NCBI GenBank assembly: GCA_029263395.1
Contig: JAJCXO010000253.1
Coordinates: forward strand, 1-64,000
Length of the DNA stretch: 64,000 bases
DNA from: Acidobacteriota bacterium
GTDB taxonomy: Bacteria > Acidobacteriota > Thermoanaerobaculia > Multivoradales > J023
Direction of reading: 5' to 3'
Shown here one piece after another: positions 44,807 through 51,469 of the stretch. The first letter of the stretch is position 1; every line of letters starts with the position of its first letter. Position numbers and translations under genes: made by a program. Under the pieces are notes generated by a model, which had not been told where the DNA came from, ran no database searches, and saw only the letters and a list, made by a program, of their open reading frames with translations.

Positions 44807-46909
44807 ATGCGACTGGATCGATCCTCACGGATCCCGCTGACGCGCAAGATTCTCCTGACTCTCTTGGCCGTGCCTGCTGCTGTTGGGCTGGTCCTCTGGG
44901 GTCTTGGCCTCGACTTCGGCCTGTTGGGCTCGCTGAGTCGAGCCTATGCTCTCGCCTACCTCATCGCGATCGCGATCTGGTTGCTGATCCGCGGCCTGCG
45001 GCTCTTTCTATGGCGAGTCAGTCGACGGCTGGCGTTCTCGTATTTCCTCATCGGTGTGGTTCCGTTGCCCATCCTGCTCTTCTTGTTTCTGGTTGCGGCT
45101 TATATTGGCAGCGGTTTTTACCTCGGACACGTTTACCGCGACGCCCTGGATTCAGTAGCTAATGACCTTCGTTTTGCGGCGCATCGCGACCTCGAGCAGA
45201 TCCAGCGCGGCAACATCGAGCCGATTGAGCACCCGATCCCGATCGCCTTCGCCTACTACAGCGACGGCCACAAGCTGGCCGGTAACCCAGACGCCCCCGA
45301 GCAATGGCAAGCTTGGTGGCAAGCAGAATCACCGGACTCGCTGACCTCAGACCTCGACGGTCTGCCGATTGTCGCCAATATCGATGGTTCCCCGACGCTA
45401 GCGGCGATGGTCCACGACGACACCTACAGCATCCTAGCCACTTACAGCGGCGACCTCGACCGCGAGTTGTCAGAGCGCAGTGGCATCTGGGTCGAGCTAT
45501 TCCGAGCCGACGACCCCAGCCATGATCAAAGCCACCGCATCACGATCCAGAACCGTGAATATCCGATGACGCCACCTCATTTCGAGACGGCGCGGGAAGA
45601 CTTGGCGGAATTCTTCCACCCGGACTTGGACGATCCTGGCTTCATCGATCGACCCTGGCTGACCTGGGTCGAGATTTCGGAACCATTCCTCGATCTGAAC
45701 TCGGGCAACCCCTCTGCAAAGTATATCTCAGCAACTTTGACGGCCAATCTCCGGGCTCTCTACCACCACCTGGTTTGGCGCACCTCTGAAGTCAATTTGT
45801 ACATCTACGTCACGTTCATCACGGTGGCGTTCCTACTTCTCGATATCCAGGTAGTGGCAGCGCTGATGGCTTTGTTGATGGTCTTCGGGCTGAGTCGAGC
45901 CGTGAATACCTTGAGCAAGGCGACGGAAAAGGTGCAACAAGGTGATTTCTCGACCCGCATCGAGGTCCGTCGTCAGGATCAGATCGGCGCGCTCCAGACC
46001 AACTTCAATCAGATGGCTGCCAATCTCGAGTCGTTTGTGGCATCGGCGGCTCAGAAGGAGATTCTGGAAAAAGAAATCTCGATCGCTCGAGAGCTGCAAC
46101 ACAGCCTGCTGCCGGACACTCTCGCTGCTCCGCCGGGGCTGCGATTTGCTGCCCACTTCGAACCCTCGACGACAATTGGTGGCGACTACTACGACTTGCT
46201 ACCGATGGCTGAGAACCGACTCGGAGTTGTGGTGGCGGATGTCTCCGGACACGGTTTGTCAGCCGGACTCCGCATGGCGATGGTCAAATCTGCACTCATG
46301 TTGTTGTGGGAAGAAGAAGACCGGCCGATTGCGATCCTACAGCGACTCCATGTCCTGCTCCGCGACCGCCTACAGAGCAAGCAAGGGCGGGGCTTCGTTA
46401 CCGCGACCCTGTCCGTCATCGACAGTCAAAGTGGCGAGCTGACGATCACCAACGCGGGCCATCCTCCCACCTATCTCAGACGTGGCGGCGTCGTCAGCGA
46501 GATCATGCTGCCGAGTACTCCCCTCGGTGCCCTCGGTAGTGACTTCGGTCAAACAACCCTCCAGCTCGAAGCGGGTGATGTGGTGGTCTGGCTCTCCGAC
46601 GGCATGATCGAAGCCACCGACCCTGCCGGCAACGACTTCGGCTACGATCGTTTGATCGAGGTCCTGGGCGAAGCCCCGGTCGAGCCGGCCAAAACTCGAG
46701 ATCACTTATTGGCAGCAATCCACGCCCACACCGAGGGTGGCATTCCCGAAGATGATCGCACCTTACTAGTCATGGCTTACGAACCGCTAGGCGCGGTGCC
46801 GGCCGCTTCCGAACCAGATGAAGCCGCACCAGATGAAGACGAACCAGACGAAGCCGCACCAGACGAAGACGCCCCCCAAGACGAACCATCCAGGCCGAGG
46901 TCGGCGTAA
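44807..46909 (+). CDS. Membrane-bound PP2C/SpoIIE-type phosphatase with HAMP domain (RsbU-like)
   Basis: 700 residues. Three hydrophobic helices lie in the first 110 residues (ILLTLLAVPAAVGLVLWG, ALAYLIAIAIWLLI, FLIGVVPLPILLFLFLVAAY). A periplasmic-type sensor region of about 200 residues follows, then a fourth membrane segment (LYIYVTFITVAFLLLDI). HAMP comes next (NTLSKATEKVQQGDFSTRIEV). The SpoIIE phosphatase domain has LQHSLLPD, GGDYYDLLP, VVADVSGHGLSAGL and ITNAGHPP with GIPEDDRTLLV. It should dephosphorylate an anti-sigma-factor antagonist, which is not in the window. The last 30 residues are an acidic repeat (EPDEAAPDED twice) encoded in a 133-bp overlap with the opposing transglycosylase gene. 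Confidence 0.9.
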   Translation: MRLDRSSRIPLTRKILLTLLAVPAAVGLVLWGLGLDFGLLGSLSRAYALAYLIAIAIWLLIRGLRLFLWRVSRRLAFSYFLIGVVPLPILLFLFLVAAYIGSGFYLGHVYRDALDSVANDLRFAAHRDLEQIQRGNIEPIEHPIPIAFAYYSDGHKLAGNPDAPEQWQAWWQAESPDSLTSDLDGLPIVANIDGSPTLAAMVHDDTYSILATYSGDLDRELSERSGIWVELFRADDPSHDQSHRITIQNREYPMTPPHFETAREDLAEFFHPDLDDPGFIDRPWLTWVEISEPFLDLNSGNPSAKYISATLTANLRALYHHLVWRTSEVNLYIYVTFITVAFLLLDIQVVAALMALLMVFGLSRAVNTLSKATEKVQQGDFSTRIEVRRQDQIGALQTNFNQMAANLESFVASAAQKEILEKEISIARELQHSLLPDTLAAPPGLRFAAHFEPSTTIGGDYYDLLPMAENRLGVVVADVSGHGLSAGLRMAMVKSALMLLWEEEDRPIAILQRLHVLLRDRLQSKQGRGFVTATLSVIDSQSGELTITNAGHPPTYLRRGGVVSEIMLPSTPLGALGSDFGQTTLQLEAGDVVVWLSDGMIEATDPAGNDFGYDRLIEVLGEAPVEPAKTRDHLLAAIHAHTEGGIPEDDRTLLVMAYEPLGAVPAASEPDEAAPDEDEPDEAAPDEDAPQDEPSRPRSA

Positions 46910-47583
46910 ATACGCTTCAAATAAGCGCGGGTCTCACGATAGGGCGGCACCCCCTGATAACGATCGACGGTGCCTTCGCCGGCATTGTAAGCGGCGAGGA
47001 CGCTGGCGAGATCACCGTCGAAACGTTTGCTGAGCCAGCTCAGATAACGAGCGCCAGCATCAATGGCCTTGGCTGGCTCGAACGCCTCACCTGCTTCGAG
47101 TCCAAAACGCTGCGCTGTCGCTGGCATCAACTGCATTAACCCTTGTGCCCCCTTGCGCGATACCGCCCGCGGCTTGAACGCAGATTCTGCTCGGACCACC
47201 GCGGCGATTAATGCCGGATTGAGAGCGTGACGCTCCCCCGCCCCATAAATTAGCTCGGCGTAGGGAGTGGATGGTCGCGGCTGAGATGGATCGAATCGCA
47301 GTTGGAAAACCGGGACCTCGACCACCACTTCCGGTACCTCCCCACCACGCACCACCTCATCTTCCAGAATCCGTTCGACACGCAACATCGAAACCGCCAT
47401 CTGGCCCCCGGAAAGTAATTCCAGGTGAACTTTGTCGCCATCAACCCGGTAAGTCTCGACTTTCAGGAAGCCGCCACCGGAAAAGACTACCAACTCGGCT
47501 TCGGCATCCGAAGTCCCGAACCAGATCGCTCCACAAAGCCAGATTGATCCAACAAGCACGGTGATCCCACATCGCCTTCTCAT
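46777..47583 (-). CDS. Lytic transglycosylase, SLT family
   Basis: 268 residues from the ATG at 47583; the frame also allows GTG at 47586. A signal sequence is present (GITVLVGSIWLCGAIWFG). A short beta-rich segment follows, with FSGGGFLKVETYRVDGD and LRVERI. The SLT domain (about 105-225) has catalytic Glu133 in RAESAFKPRAVS, GAQGLMQLMPATA and AYNAGEGTVDRY. It cleaves peptidoglycan to 1,6-anhydromuropeptides in the periplasm. The C-terminal tail is a Ser/Gly/Ala repeat (SSSGAASSG...), read from the same 30-bp DNA repeats that give the phosphatase its acidic tail on the other strand. Confidence 0.92.
   Translation of the reverse strand: MRRRCGITVLVGSIWLCGAIWFGTSDAEAELVVFSGGGFLKVETYRVDGDKVHLELLSGGQMAVSMLRVERILEDEVVRGGEVPEVVVEVPVFQLRFDPSQPRPSTPYAELIYGAGERHALNPALIAAVVRAESAFKPRAVSRKGAQGLMQLMPATAQRFGLEAGEAFEPAKAIDAGARYLSWLSKRFDGDLASVLAAYNAGEGTVDRYQGVPPYRETRAYLKRIYADLGLDGSSWGASSSGAASSGSSSSGAASSGSEAAGTAPSGS
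46811..46870. repeat. Tandem 30-bp repeat, two copies, coding on both strands
   Basis: Copies 46811-46840 and 46841-46870 differ at only two positions (T/C changes). On the plus strand each encodes EPDEAAPDED of the phosphatase. On the minus strand each encodes a Ser/Gly/Ala decapeptide of the transglycosylase. Confidence 0.85.
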
Positions 47584-47956
47584 CACCTTACCTTACGATA
47601 GTCAGGCGACCCGCGCCTATCCTGCTCCATTCTCCATTTATCGCCGCCATTTATCGGTGCCAGCGACCTCGGAGAGAGAGCCGGAGAGAGAGCGGAGAGC
47701 AGAGCGGCGAAGCGTTGTTGATAGCCGCTGGCCGTGCTTTGACTATGCCCTCGATGTAGTCTGAAGCCCTCTGATGGCCATCAAGAAAGAGCCGAGACCG
47801 CAAAGCGGCTTCGAATCGATTCCGATTGCCCGGGCCGTTTGAATTCTCTGGTTTTTTGGTAGAGCTCAGACGCACCTACCCCAGCAATCTCAGATATCGA
47901 GATTTGATGGACGGTTGGCTACGGTATCGAGGTTGGGAATCGACCCGTCAGCAGGC
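47584..47956. other. Intergenic region with GA-rich patch
   Basis: About 370 bp between the transglycosylase start and the transposase stop. It has a GAGA/GGAGAG-rich patch at about 47670-47705 and should contain the transglycosylase promoter. No gene is evident. Confidence 0.45.
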
Positions 47957-48982: not shown

Positions 48983-49265
48983 AGGGTGTTCTCCCGAAAG
49001 TCAGCGCCTTGGAGTGCGAGGGAGCCTCCGCGGCCACGCGCCGCGTACGGCCTCTCGCCTTTTGGAGCTGGTTTCTCGAGACATCGAGGGGAGGCGACGG
49101 TTGGCCGCAAGCGCACTCGGTGCCTACACCCCTACAAAGACGGAAAAGGGCTCTCCGATCTTTTGGGTGAGGCGAAGATTGTTATCGCCGACCGGTTATC
49201 GCCGACCGAAACGGACCGAAACGGCTGGCACACTGCGATCGCACTCTGTGATCGGCCTCTGTTAT

Positions 49266-49324
49266 CGACACCGTAACCGACACGGCAGGCACCGGCACCG
49301 ACACCGTGACCGACACGGCAGGCA
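49266..49324. repeat. 26-bp direct repeat, two copies
   Basis: CGACACCGTRACCGACACGG followed by CAGGCA occurs at 49266-49291 and 49299-49324. A degenerate third copy (TGTGACCGACACGGCCGGCA) lies at about 49851-49870, just before MITE copy 2. All lie upstream of the transposase gene. Confidence 0.7.
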
Positions 49325-49362
49325 TTGCAGCACCGTGGCATTGCACCTGGGCATCGTGCGCA

Positions 49363-49436
49363 CGGTGACGCTGGTGACGGTGACGGTGACGGTGACGTCG
49401 GTGACGGTGACGGTGACGGTGACGGTGAGCGTCACC
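49363..49436. repeat. GTGACG hexamer microsatellite
   Basis: About eleven hexamer units of GTGACG with small interruptions, for example GTGACGCTG and GTGACGTCG. It keeps long spurious frames open in several directions. Upstream of the transposase gene. Confidence 0.85.
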
Positions 49437-49522
49437 TTGTGTTCGAGGCGTAATTCGCCCAAATCGGGCGAATTGTGGCCCGTTCTGGGTGATTCGCCGG
49501 AGAAACCCAGAAAACTACACCC

Positions 49523-49740
49523 GGGAGAAGACCTTTCCGTCGTCAAAACTAGGGCTCTCCCGCCGGGAGGACGCCATTCGAACGTCATAAATCACGTCAA
49601 ACGGCGGGAGAACGCCTGTCGTGCATTGGTTCAGGTGGTCCAATGGTGGGAGAAGACCTTTCCGTCGTCACAACACGTCTCCTGGTGGGGTCGGGGCGCG
49701 AGTTGAAAGGCTGGAGAGGTCTTGTCCCGCCGGCAGGGCG
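49523..49740. repeat. Short interspersed repeats, GGGAGAAGACCTTTCCGTCG-type, four or five copies
   Basis: Identical 23-base copies start at 49523 and 49648. Degenerate copies start near 49565 (GGGAGGACGCC), 49605 (GGGAGAACGCC) and 49714 (GGAGAGGTC). Spacing between the first four is about 40-43 bases. They resemble a decayed array of REP-like units beside the transposase gene, but a conserved hairpin is not clear. Confidence 0.5.
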
Positions 49741-49869
49741 CGAGTTGGGGCTAAGGGATGGCTAGCTACCGCCGCTTTCGGAGGTGTTGAGGCCGACGAC
49801 AGGTCTTCGGCTGACGGTGGGTTCCATTCCGAAGCCCTGTGACCGACACTGTGACCGACACGGCCGGCA

Positions 49870-50090
49870 CCCAAGCCCGCATCTAAGAACGCATCAAGAG
49901 CTCGGTCGGTCTTGTGGGCTGCGCCGCAGCTCCGGAAACTCGCCGGATCGCTCTCAGTATGCCCAAGCTGTTTGGGTGCCAACGGATACGAGATGCAATC
50001 AGGTGCGAAGCTCAAACACGCTCGCTGCTTGCTCGCTCCACAAGACCTCCCTCCCCGGGGCCAAATGGCAAACGGAACAGGATCTAGCCA
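49870..50090 (+). mobile_element. MITE-like element, copy 2
   Basis: About 220 bp. Shares with the other copies CTCGGTCGGTCTTGTGGGCT, GCTGCGCCGCAGC (a perfect small palindrome), CTCGCCGGATC, CAGGTGCGAAGCTCAAACAC, GCTCGCTGCTTGCTCGC and GACCTCCCTCCCCG. The right end is decayed (AACAGGATCTAGCCAG) and the left inverted repeat is not recognisable. It ends 26 bp after the stop of the ClpX-zinc-finger gene. Confidence 0.78.
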
Positions 50091-50115: not shown

Positions 50116-50295
50116 TCAGGGATCGGCAGGGGTCTCGGGCTGCCATAGACGATGCTCCGCCAGGATGTCATTGCAGATCGCGACACAGTCGCCGCAGATG
50201 TAGACCTTCGGACCAGCGATCAGTCGGCTGATCTCCTGCTGCGTCTTGTGACAGAACGAGCACTTCATGGACTTGTTGGCAACGTTGTAGATCAT
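50116..50295 (-). CDS. Stand-alone ClpX-type C4 zinc-finger protein
   Basis: 59 residues from the ATG at 50295, which has AGGAGGA immediately upstream; the longer frame above it overlaps the membrane-protein gene and is not supported. Almost the whole protein is a ClpX zinc-binding domain: MKCSFCHKTQQEISRLIAGP and YICGDCVAICNDIL give C-x2-C and C-x2-C. In ClpX this domain dimerises and binds adaptors and substrates. Here the AAA+ part is absent. It ends an operon after an ECF sigma factor and a membrane protein, with 17 bp to the preceding stop. A role as adaptor or decoy for ClpXP is a hypothesis. Confidence 0.85.
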   Translation of the reverse strand: MIYNVANKSMKCSFCHKTQQEISRLIAGPKVYICGDCVAICNDILAEHRLWQPETPADP

Positions 50296-50312
50296 GTCTC
50301 CTCCTGAGTTCA

Positions 50313-50852
50313 TCAAGCAGCCAAACGGGTCTTGGAGTCGAGGGCCTGCAGGCTGTTGCGAAGTTGCAACAAGGTGTTGTGGTGACGCACAGCACGAAGA
50401 TGCATGCCATAGGCGAAACCGAACAGCACCAGGCCACAACCGCCCGCCAGTAGCCCTCCCAGCATCGCACTCTGAGCCAACCCGACCACCGCTGAACCGA
50501 CAGCAAATAGGGCGCAGAAGATCATCCCCAACCGCGCCGAGATTACCTGCTGTCGGGCATACAGCACTCGACGCTGGGTCAGCACCCAAACACAGAAGGT
50601 GATCCAACCAGCACCGATTGCGCACAACGCTCCAAACGCTATCTGGGTCCGCGGGGGTAAGCCGGGTTCAGTCAGCCACAACGAACCGACAACGACGACC
50701 ATCGCGGTCGACAGCAACAACAGCAGCACATAAGGCAGGCGTGATGCCATCGACAACTCGTCGCGCAGCAACTGCTGAACAGCTTGGACATTGAACGGTC
50801 TCGAGTCAGACTTGCGATCGTCGGACGGTAAAGCGAGGTTGTTGTTGCTCAT
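50313..50852 (-). CDS. Four-helix membrane protein, sigma-factor partner
   Basis: 179 residues. Polar N-terminus of about 38 residues, then four hydrophobic segments (YVLLLLLSTAMVVVVGSLW, IAFGALCAIGAGWITFCVW, LGMIFCALFAVGSAVVGLA, AMLGGLLAGGCGLVLFGFAYGM) and a short basic C-terminal helix. Its ATG overlaps the sigma-factor stop by one base (TGATG), so the two are translationally coupled. By position it may act as an anti-sigma factor, but no zinc-binding or ASD motif is visible. I do not recognise the family. Confidence 0.8.
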   Translation of the reverse strand: MSNNNLALPSDDRKSDSRPFNVQAVQQLLRDELSMASRLPYVLLLLLSTAMVVVVGSLWLTEPGLPPRTQIAFGALCAIGAGWITFCVWVLTQRRVLYARQQVISARLGMIFCALFAVGSAVVGLAQSAMLGGLLAGGCGLVLFGFAYGMHLRAVRHHNTLLQLRNSLQALDSKTRLAA

Positions 50853-51469
50853 CAGCTCACTCCTTCTGGCAGAGTTTCCAAAGTCTTGCGTAATAACCCA
50901 CGAGCACGAAAGAGCCTTGATTTGACGGTCCCAACCGGGATTCCAAGGATCTCCGAAACCTCTGACAACCGGAGCTCTTGGAGATAAAACAAGGTCAAGA
51001 CTTCGCGCTCGATCAGCGGCAACGACGACAAGCCGCGACGGAGGTCTCTGCCGTCTAGATCAACCGCCGAAAGCGTCGATTCGACTTCGACTTGGTCCGG
51101 ATCGACGGCGGCGTCTGGCGGCGCCGCATAACGATCCCGCAGCCGGTCCATCACCACGTTGCGGGCAATGCGATGCATCCATGGCGCCAGTCGCCCACCA
51201 TCCCGCAGGCGCGGCAGGCCACGCAGGATGCGCACCCACACCTCCTGGATCAACTCTTCGGCGATTCCGTGCTCTGGAGCCAGTCGCCGAACGTAGCCCC
51301 ATAACCTGGGATGCCAACATGCAACGAGTTCGTCGAAGGCTTGGATCTCACCCAACTGGCAACGAACCACCAGCAGTTCGTCACGTCTGGTATCGCTAGG
51401 TCTTGGATCGTCAGGTTTTGGATCTTTAGGTCTTGGATCGTTAGGTCTTGGATCGGTACGGTGTTTCAC
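50852..51469 (-). CDS. ECF-family RNA polymerase sigma factor
   Basis: 205 residues. Region 2 is AFDELVACWHPRLWGYVRRL to APWMHRIARNVVMDRLR. Region 4 is LPLIEREVLTLFYLQELRLSEVSEILGIPVGTVKSRLFRARGLL. The first 28 residues are a low-complexity lead of D-P-R-P-x repeats, coded by four 15-bp DNA units. It is coupled to the membrane protein and ClpX-type zinc-finger genes and diverges from nothing nearby; upstream on the same strand lies the lhr stop at 51547. Confidence 0.92.
   Translation of the reverse strand: MKHRTDPRPNDPRPKDPKPDDPRPSDTRRDELLVVRCQLGEIQAFDELVACWHPRLWGYVRRLAPEHGIAEELIQEVWVRILRGLPRLRDGGRLAPWMHRIARNVVMDRLRDRYAAPPDAAVDPDQVEVESTLSAVDLDGRDLRRGLSSLPLIEREVLTLFYLQELRLSEVSEILGIPVGTVKSRLFRARGLLRKTLETLPEGVS
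51395..51454. repeat. Tandem 15-bp repeat, four copies, in the sigma-factor N-terminus
   Basis: Units GCTAGGTCTTGGATC, GTCAGGTTTTGGATC, TTTAGGTCTTGGATC and GTTAGGTCTTGGATC on the plus strand, coding D-P-R/K-P-x on the minus strand. Unit number may vary between strains. Confidence 0.88.

Follow-up and report, generated by a model that had tools for sequence, protein, structure and literature searches.

A stand-alone ClpX-type zinc finger encoded with an ECF sigma factor and a membrane protein in a predicted autoregulated operon of an Acidobacteriota bacterium

Analysis of a 64,000-nucleotide stretch of the genome of an uncultured Acidobacteriota bacterium (hereafter the window, meaning that whole stretch) revealed three tandem genes encoding an ECF sigma factor, a membrane protein and a stand-alone ClpX C4-type zinc finger. 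Comparison with related genomes indicated that the sigma and membrane genes form an old pair, with a promoter motif of their own, to which the finger gene was probably added within a single genus. The finger carries the features of the N-terminal domain by which ClpX receives adaptors and substrates, and it may act as a separate copy of that domain.

Results

Organization of the gene cluster

The window belongs to genome G000 (10.7 Mb in 291 contigs), which contains 63 matches to Sigma70_r2 and two to zf-C4_ClpX, one of the latter being clpX itself, on contig C177. The features considered here are the following.

50852-51469, minus strand: ECF sigma gene, GTG start, 205 amino acids, with Sigma70_r2 and Sigma70_r4_2 in Pfam
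50313-50852, minus strand: membrane-protein gene, 179 amino acids, its ATG overlapping the sigma stop codon (TGATG)
50116-50295, minus strand: stand-alone ClpX C4-type zinc-finger gene, ATG start, 59 amino acids, PF06689
51489..51514, minus strand: candidate ECF-type promoter TGAACCT-N14-CGACT, from the motif and cross-species alignment, read as autoregulatory
46777-47586, minus strand: neighbouring lytic transglycosylase (SLT) gene, PF01464, 107.7 bits
47957-48982: Y1-transposase-like gene, 21.9 bits against a cut-off of 23, absent from the corresponding region of G001

The presence and position of the three genes, as given in a preliminary description of this DNA, were borne out by the open reading frames, by the Pfam matches and by the same gene order in a congener (G001). 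The junctions it had described were likewise found: the sigma and membrane genes overlap in TGATG, and the finger gene lies 17 bases downstream of the membrane gene, its start preceded by a ribosome site (GGAGGAGAC-ATG).

Conservation of the trio in a congener

In G001, locus L033 carries the sigma, membrane and finger genes in the same order and with the same type of junction, with a gap of 18 bases before the finger, and this recurrence places the arrangement beyond chance as judged from the two sequences. Amino acid identity between G000 and G001 was 77, 69, and 71% for the sigma factor, the membrane protein and the finger, respectively, and the corresponding dN/dS values were 0.11, 0.22, and 0.22. 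For the finger, the ratio was taken over 59 codons at a dS of approximately 0.75 and indicates that the gene is under purifying selection.

In G001, an Lhr helicase gene precedes the trio and a lytic transglycosylase gene follows it; the transglycosylase gene (L033 224-1003) starts 78 bases past the finger and is 82% identical to its orthologue in the window. In G000, approximately 2.5 kb separate the finger from the transglycosylase gene, and the Y1-transposase-like gene lies within this stretch. The close spacing in G001 suggests that the transglycosylase gene may once have ended the operon, and the synteny common to both trio genomes implies that the adjacency of the genes represents one inherited event. 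Short direct repeats (GGGAGAAGACCTTTCCGTCGTC and ACCGACACGGC types, and GGTGAC runs) were observed at 49259-49871 of the window, between the finger and the Y1-transposase-like gene.

Distribution of the sigma-membrane pair

A profile search revealed homologues of the membrane protein in seven of the 148 genomes of the class (G000, G001, G006, G007, G015, G018, and G020), and in all seven a related sigma gene precedes the membrane gene; G006 belongs to the same family as G000. An eighth pair locus was found elsewhere in the phylum, in G423, where the sigma C-terminus followed by the membrane gene lies at the end of one contig and the sigma N-terminus on another, the two pieces being joined by similarity alone. 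Over the phylum, with at most nine candidates scored per genome, at least four of 396 genomes matched the membrane profile, three of them from the class, and among the membrane-protein scans of named genomes one gave no match and another matched G001 and G006 only.

The finger query had no match in the stretch examined at any of the six pair loci outside the genus, and the finger is present at two of the eight loci, both in one genus. Sequence comparison thus indicates that the sigma-membrane pair is the older core and the finger a genus-level addition. Since the pair occurs with its own promoter and without the finger at six of the eight loci, the finger is an accessory and cannot belong to the basic switch. 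Conservation of the trio among relatives, a point raised in the preliminary description, held in part: the congener keeps the trio, but at the pair loci outside this genus no finger gene accompanies the sigma gene.

The sigma factor and its promoter

In Pfam, the sigma factor matched Sigma70_r2 (58.5 bits, positions 48-113) and Sigma70_r4_2 (54.2 bits, positions 142-190), and apart from these only an overlapping r4 model scored above its cut-off, so that the protein consists of sigma2 and sigma4 only. A short tandem repeat (GATCCAAGACCTAAC type, DPRP-type) at the start of the sigma gene, at 51400-51469 of the window, lengthens its N-terminus relative to the congener.

The motif GAACCT-N14/15-CGACT was found just upstream of the sigma gene at all eight pair loci, with one match each; searched with spacers of 13 to 15 bases over 133,556 bases on both strands, it had no match away from these eight promoters. 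In the window, 19 bases separate CGACT from the sigma GTG. The best local alignment of the intergenic stretches of G000 and G001 (77 and 196 bases) was a 47-base block running from the motif to the start codon, identical at 44 of its 47 positions. According to PMC8103513, the original description of ECF promoters gave AAC at -35 and CGT at -10, and approximately 55% of the ECFs analysed are called autoregulated. From the promoter motif we conclude that the genes form a predicted autoregulated ECF operon.

The pattern TGAACCT-N13..15-CGACT was also searched across eight genomes, with the reversed pattern as control. There were 31 matches against 20 for the control; seven of the 31 are operon promoters, and the remaining 24 against 20 therefore give no clear wider regulon. 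Matches and control matches were, respectively, 5 and 3 in G000, 6 and 9 in G001, 6 and 4 in G006, 2 and 0 in G007, 7 and 2 in G015, 0 and 1 in G018, 1 and 0 in G020, and 4 and 1 in G423. A wider regulon was set aside, the genome-wide pattern being near the control level, although the counts in G015 and G423 lie above their controls. At L153 3206-4172 (G000 contig C214), one match precedes a second ECF gene, behind which comes a small membrane protein unlike that of the trio; this may be a sister system that shares the promoter preference. The 900 bases following each of the remaining three G000 matches contained no trio-type sigma or membrane gene. Sigma-like matches behind the motif were seen in L125 (G015; 33% identity) and L129 (G001; 39% identity).

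The membrane partner

The AlphaFold2 model of the membrane protein, built from eight sequences (pLDDT 78, pTM 0.55), contains a helix at residues 22-33 within a short N-terminal tail, and long helices at 39-61, 67-92, 99-126, and 130-178. These four long helices were judged by eye and read as transmembrane. The protein had no Pfam match at E<=1, just two off-target NCBIfam matches far under the cut-offs, and, in a fold search with the model, no PDB match at E<=0.001.

Class I anti-sigma domains (ASDI) are reported to comprise 101 +/- 33 residues (PMC7406223), and approximately 38 residues precede the first long helix in the model. A class I anti-sigma factor (RseA, RsiW, and relatives) was rejected as an identity for the protein, with no family match and too short a tail. 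The four modelled long helices also make it unlikely that the protein is of the single-pass RseA type, which is cut in the membrane and yields a fragment given to ClpXP. The membrane anti-sigma factor of degradable type that had been considered possible in the preliminary description thus found no backing, either in a recognised anti-sigma domain or in the modelled topology.

A few invariant positions occur in the short N-terminal helix. Judging from its position, the membrane protein may be an anti-sigma factor acting via this helix, and on the same grounds of gene position it is regarded here as a putative anti-sigma or sensor partner with a regulatory role. In G020 (contig C4, L081 4179-5807), the reading frame of the membrane partner continues with an M23 peptidase domain (55.9 bits). 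This naturally fused protein hints at a function of the partner at the cell wall.

The zinc finger and its docking residues

The finger matched zf-C4_ClpX (PF06689) with 59.7 bits, against a cut-off of 27, and the zinc-binding domain chain of E. coli ClpX (2ds5_A) with an E value of 5e-14. Its zinc cysteines are C12, C15, C34, and C37, with 18 residues between the pairs. The 59-residue open reading frame had no AAA+ match, and the protein is therefore not a ClpX unfoldase. The trio fingers keep the four cysteines together with F16, L27, I28, A29, G30, P31, V33, I35, and I46 (E. coli ClpX numbering). Of 39 core positions, 34 are identical between the two trio fingers, and 24 are common to the trio fingers and the own ClpX of G000. 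At 11 of the 39, both trio fingers have the same residue and the ClpX of G000 a different one; D37G, E38D, D41A, K25S, T32K, and I47L are among these changes, and such shared departures suggest that ClpX-type binding may be altered. Trigger factor and lambda O bind a hydrophobic region of ClpX that includes residues F16 and I46, and SspB and RssB reportedly dock there too (PMC7804408). The AlphaFold model of the finger was poor (pLDDT 71, pTM 0.33), and its best fold match was a ClpX-ClpP model (E 0.005); the fold searches with the membrane and finger models are uninformative beyond the family.

A member of the SspB family is encoded in all four genomes tested (135 bits in G000), and as these include the trio-less G006 and G007, the presence of SspB does not explain the finger. 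The C-terminal end of SspB, NVVSFSGFQKRRSGQ, is identical in G000 and G001 and may resemble alpha-proteobacterial SspB tails. In Pseudomonas, SspB is reported to bring the AlgU-MucA complex to ClpX via its C-terminal tail (PMC13251409).

Other stand-alone ClpX-type fingers

A finger profile built from the two species and searched against 396 genomes of the phylum (a set that does not contain G001) gave one trio-type finger among the matches listed, that of G000, with 149 bits. The next best match had 73 bits and lay in a frame of clpX length, as do most of the matches listed; other stand-alone fingers may lie among the listed short frames (132-280 amino acids) of G438, G424, G375, G057, G469, and G388, or beyond the matches listed. 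In the search of 148 genomes of the class, no sigma-membrane pair was found beside the finger places of G020, G061, G068, G072, G074, G075, and G091. These seven places are short-frame or low-scoring, and that of G020 was viewed by eye; the finger query gave no free finger in G061 and G091. The short frames in G019, G102, and G120 read as N-termini of ClpX; those in G057 and G079, like a second G083 match, lie outside the set of places viewed.

Some of these places hold stand-alone fingers with a different build. In G020, L034 8379-8789 encodes a 136-amino acid protein with a ClpX-type finger and a helix-turn-helix-like end (an AsnC-type match below the cut-off), and in two genomes, G072 and G068, the free ClpX-type fingers encoded at L086 1030-1452 and L087 4681-5058 bear a further set of CxxC pairs near their C-terminal ends.

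On plasmids, 151 records match the finger at E<=1e-3, some of them being true clpX, and a "ClpX C4-type zinc finger protein" is annotated on plasmids of Escherichia, Salmonella, Shigella, and Streptomyces. Free-finger genes recur on plasmids of approximately 78-115 kb of Escherichia, Salmonella, and Shigella (e.g., NZ_CP100711.1, L092). At one such place, genes for an Icd-like protein and for a Ref-family nuclease are among the neighbours, and both are also known from P1-like phage-plasmids.

Discussion

The sequences show the layout of the operon, a conserved pair with its promoter motif, the family of the finger, purifying selection on its gene and the retention of its docking residues. On these grounds, the explanation favoured here as a whole is that of an autoregulated ECF operon in which the finger would serve as a trans-acting ClpX-docking copy, and it is held tentatively, with confidence that stays below the halfway mark. 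Under this explanation, the sigma factor would read its own TGAACCT-N14-CGACT promoter and so raise the amounts of sigma factor, membrane partner and, in the genus, finger. Through the short tail at its N-terminus, the membrane partner would keep the sigma factor at the membrane for as long as no envelope signal is received. The finger would fold as a ClpX N-domain and work in trans as its mobile copy. It would thereby engage substrates, or adaptors of which SspB is an example, whose usual docking place is on ClpX; alternatively, it could form mixed dimers with the ClpX N-domain. Once the sigma factor is on, the targets of ClpXP degradation would shift, in the simplest case through a feedback brake on SspB-type adaptor delivery. 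Delivery by SspB as for AlgU-MucA of Pseudomonas is of the kind that a free finger could intercept. Weighing against this explanation are the six pair loci that lack the finger, the 11 core positions that depart from ClpX, the equal presence of SspB in trio-less genomes, the lack of a visible wider regulon, the poor finger model and the single origin of the adjacency.

The fuller claim, that a ClpX N-domain has turned into a separate sigma-controlled regulator which diverts ClpXP adaptors or substrates or pairs with ClpX, so that an envelope signal reprograms degradation, is more doubtful. The preliminary description had proposed a switch that recruits or blocks ClpXP in the degradation of an anti-sigma factor. 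The tight trio, a genuine ClpX N-domain by sequence, the retained F16 and I46, and an encoded SspB speak for part of this proposal, but no link to anti-sigma degradation was found. Such a switch does not follow from the trio, because the pair lacks the finger at six of the eight loci and the membrane protein is unlike the type that ClpXP is known to receive. The finger may nevertheless play a part in ClpXP traffic.

The main rival, which is also closest to the favoured reading, is direct action on the sigma factor. Here the finger would form a small, soluble zinc-finger dimer that binds and regulates the sigma factor, as CsfB does with its own targets, or else regulates the membrane partner, with the ClpX N-domain recruited as a second anti-sigma factor or co-sensor. 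The place of the finger in a sigma operon agrees with this, as do two published observations: the anti-sigma factor CsfB (Gin) of Bacillus, 64 residues in length, forms a treble-clef zinc-finger dimer and is most similar to the ClpX N-domain, the two being the only dimeric treble clefs to its authors' knowledge (PMC5890618), and cyanobacterial sigma70 proteins are reported to carry ClpX-type fingers, at 6.29% of accessory domains (PMC11119718), or approximately 9 of 143 by our calculation. However, CsfB and the ClpX N-domain share approximately 20% identity, and the same authors doubt both their evolutionary relatedness and a shared function (PMC5890618). In addition, the Pfam matches of the finger are to ClpX and to one off-target zinc family below the cut-off, with none to Gin; 18 residues lie between its cysteine pairs as against 15 in CsfB; and CsfB is absent from the 12 fold matches of the (poor) finger model. 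Direct action on the sigma factor is considered rather unlikely.

It is less probable again that the finger is a zinc- or thiol-responsive accessory, a sensor or zinc buffer that has nothing to do with ClpXP. A small free domain with four cysteines would suit such a role, and the other stand-alone fingers of the class carry other additions (the AsnC-type end in G020, the second CxxC sets in G072 and G068); against it, the conservation of 34 of 39 core positions between the species extends to hydrophobic docking residues that a mere buffer would not need. The lowest probability is given to a hitch-hiker, that is, a fragment or insertion between the membrane and transglycosylase genes with no role in the pathway, which appears improbable. 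The restriction of the finger to one genus and two of eight pair loci would fit this, as would the extra stretch with the Y1-transposase-like gene that the same region holds in G000 and lacks in G001, but purifying selection on the finger (dN/dS 0.22 at a dS of approximately 0.75), and its like spacing and ribosome site in both species, argue otherwise.

The pair itself constitutes an ECF system with a predictable promoter and a membrane partner that lies outside the anti-sigma families in the scans. A free finger could tie a stress response to protein destruction. If the finger acts on ClpXP, a gene for a copy of the docking domain would provide a simple means of redirecting the protease, and it would offer an approach to the "ClpX C4-type zinc finger" proteins, whose annotation goes no further than the domain name. 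If the reading as a sigma-controlled regulator is true, the trio, together with the cyanobacterial sigma-finger fusions as reported and the free fingers of plasmids, would mark the ClpX N-domain as a regulatory module that is mobile and recurs.

Comparison with known systems

A literature search of titles and abstract openings, and of full texts under open licence, yielded no paper dealing with the trio or with what free ClpX fingers do. The rpoE-rseA and sigW-rsiW operons resemble the cluster in having a sigma factor of sigma2 and sigma4, a membrane gene downstream and a promoter motif of their own (AAC at -35, CG at -10, much as described in PMC8103513); they differ in the membrane protein, since that of the trio matches no family, is modelled with four long helices and has a tail shorter than a class I domain requires. 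The N-terminal zinc-binding domain of ClpX (PF06689; 2ds5, 1ovx) shares with the trio finger its cysteine pattern, length and hydrophobic docking residues, whereas the latter lacks AAA+, has 59 amino acids in all, is changed at the charged D37, E38, and D41, and lies in a sigma operon. CsfB (Gin) is likewise a small zinc-finger dimer, of a fold related to the ClpX N-domain, that acts on sigma factors (PMC5890618), but it is described as targeting sporulation sigma factors, and the trio finger has no Gin family match and another cysteine spacing. The free fingers of plasmids are, like that of the trio, ClpX-type fingers without AAA+ and of a kind already annotated; among the matches so annotated and listed, they show 43-53% identity over part of the query, and no sigma gene is annotated around the two places examined, where the gene tables are incomplete. 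Free ClpX-type fingers on plasmids and the common ECF-membrane operons are already known, and their combination did not turn up in the literature search.
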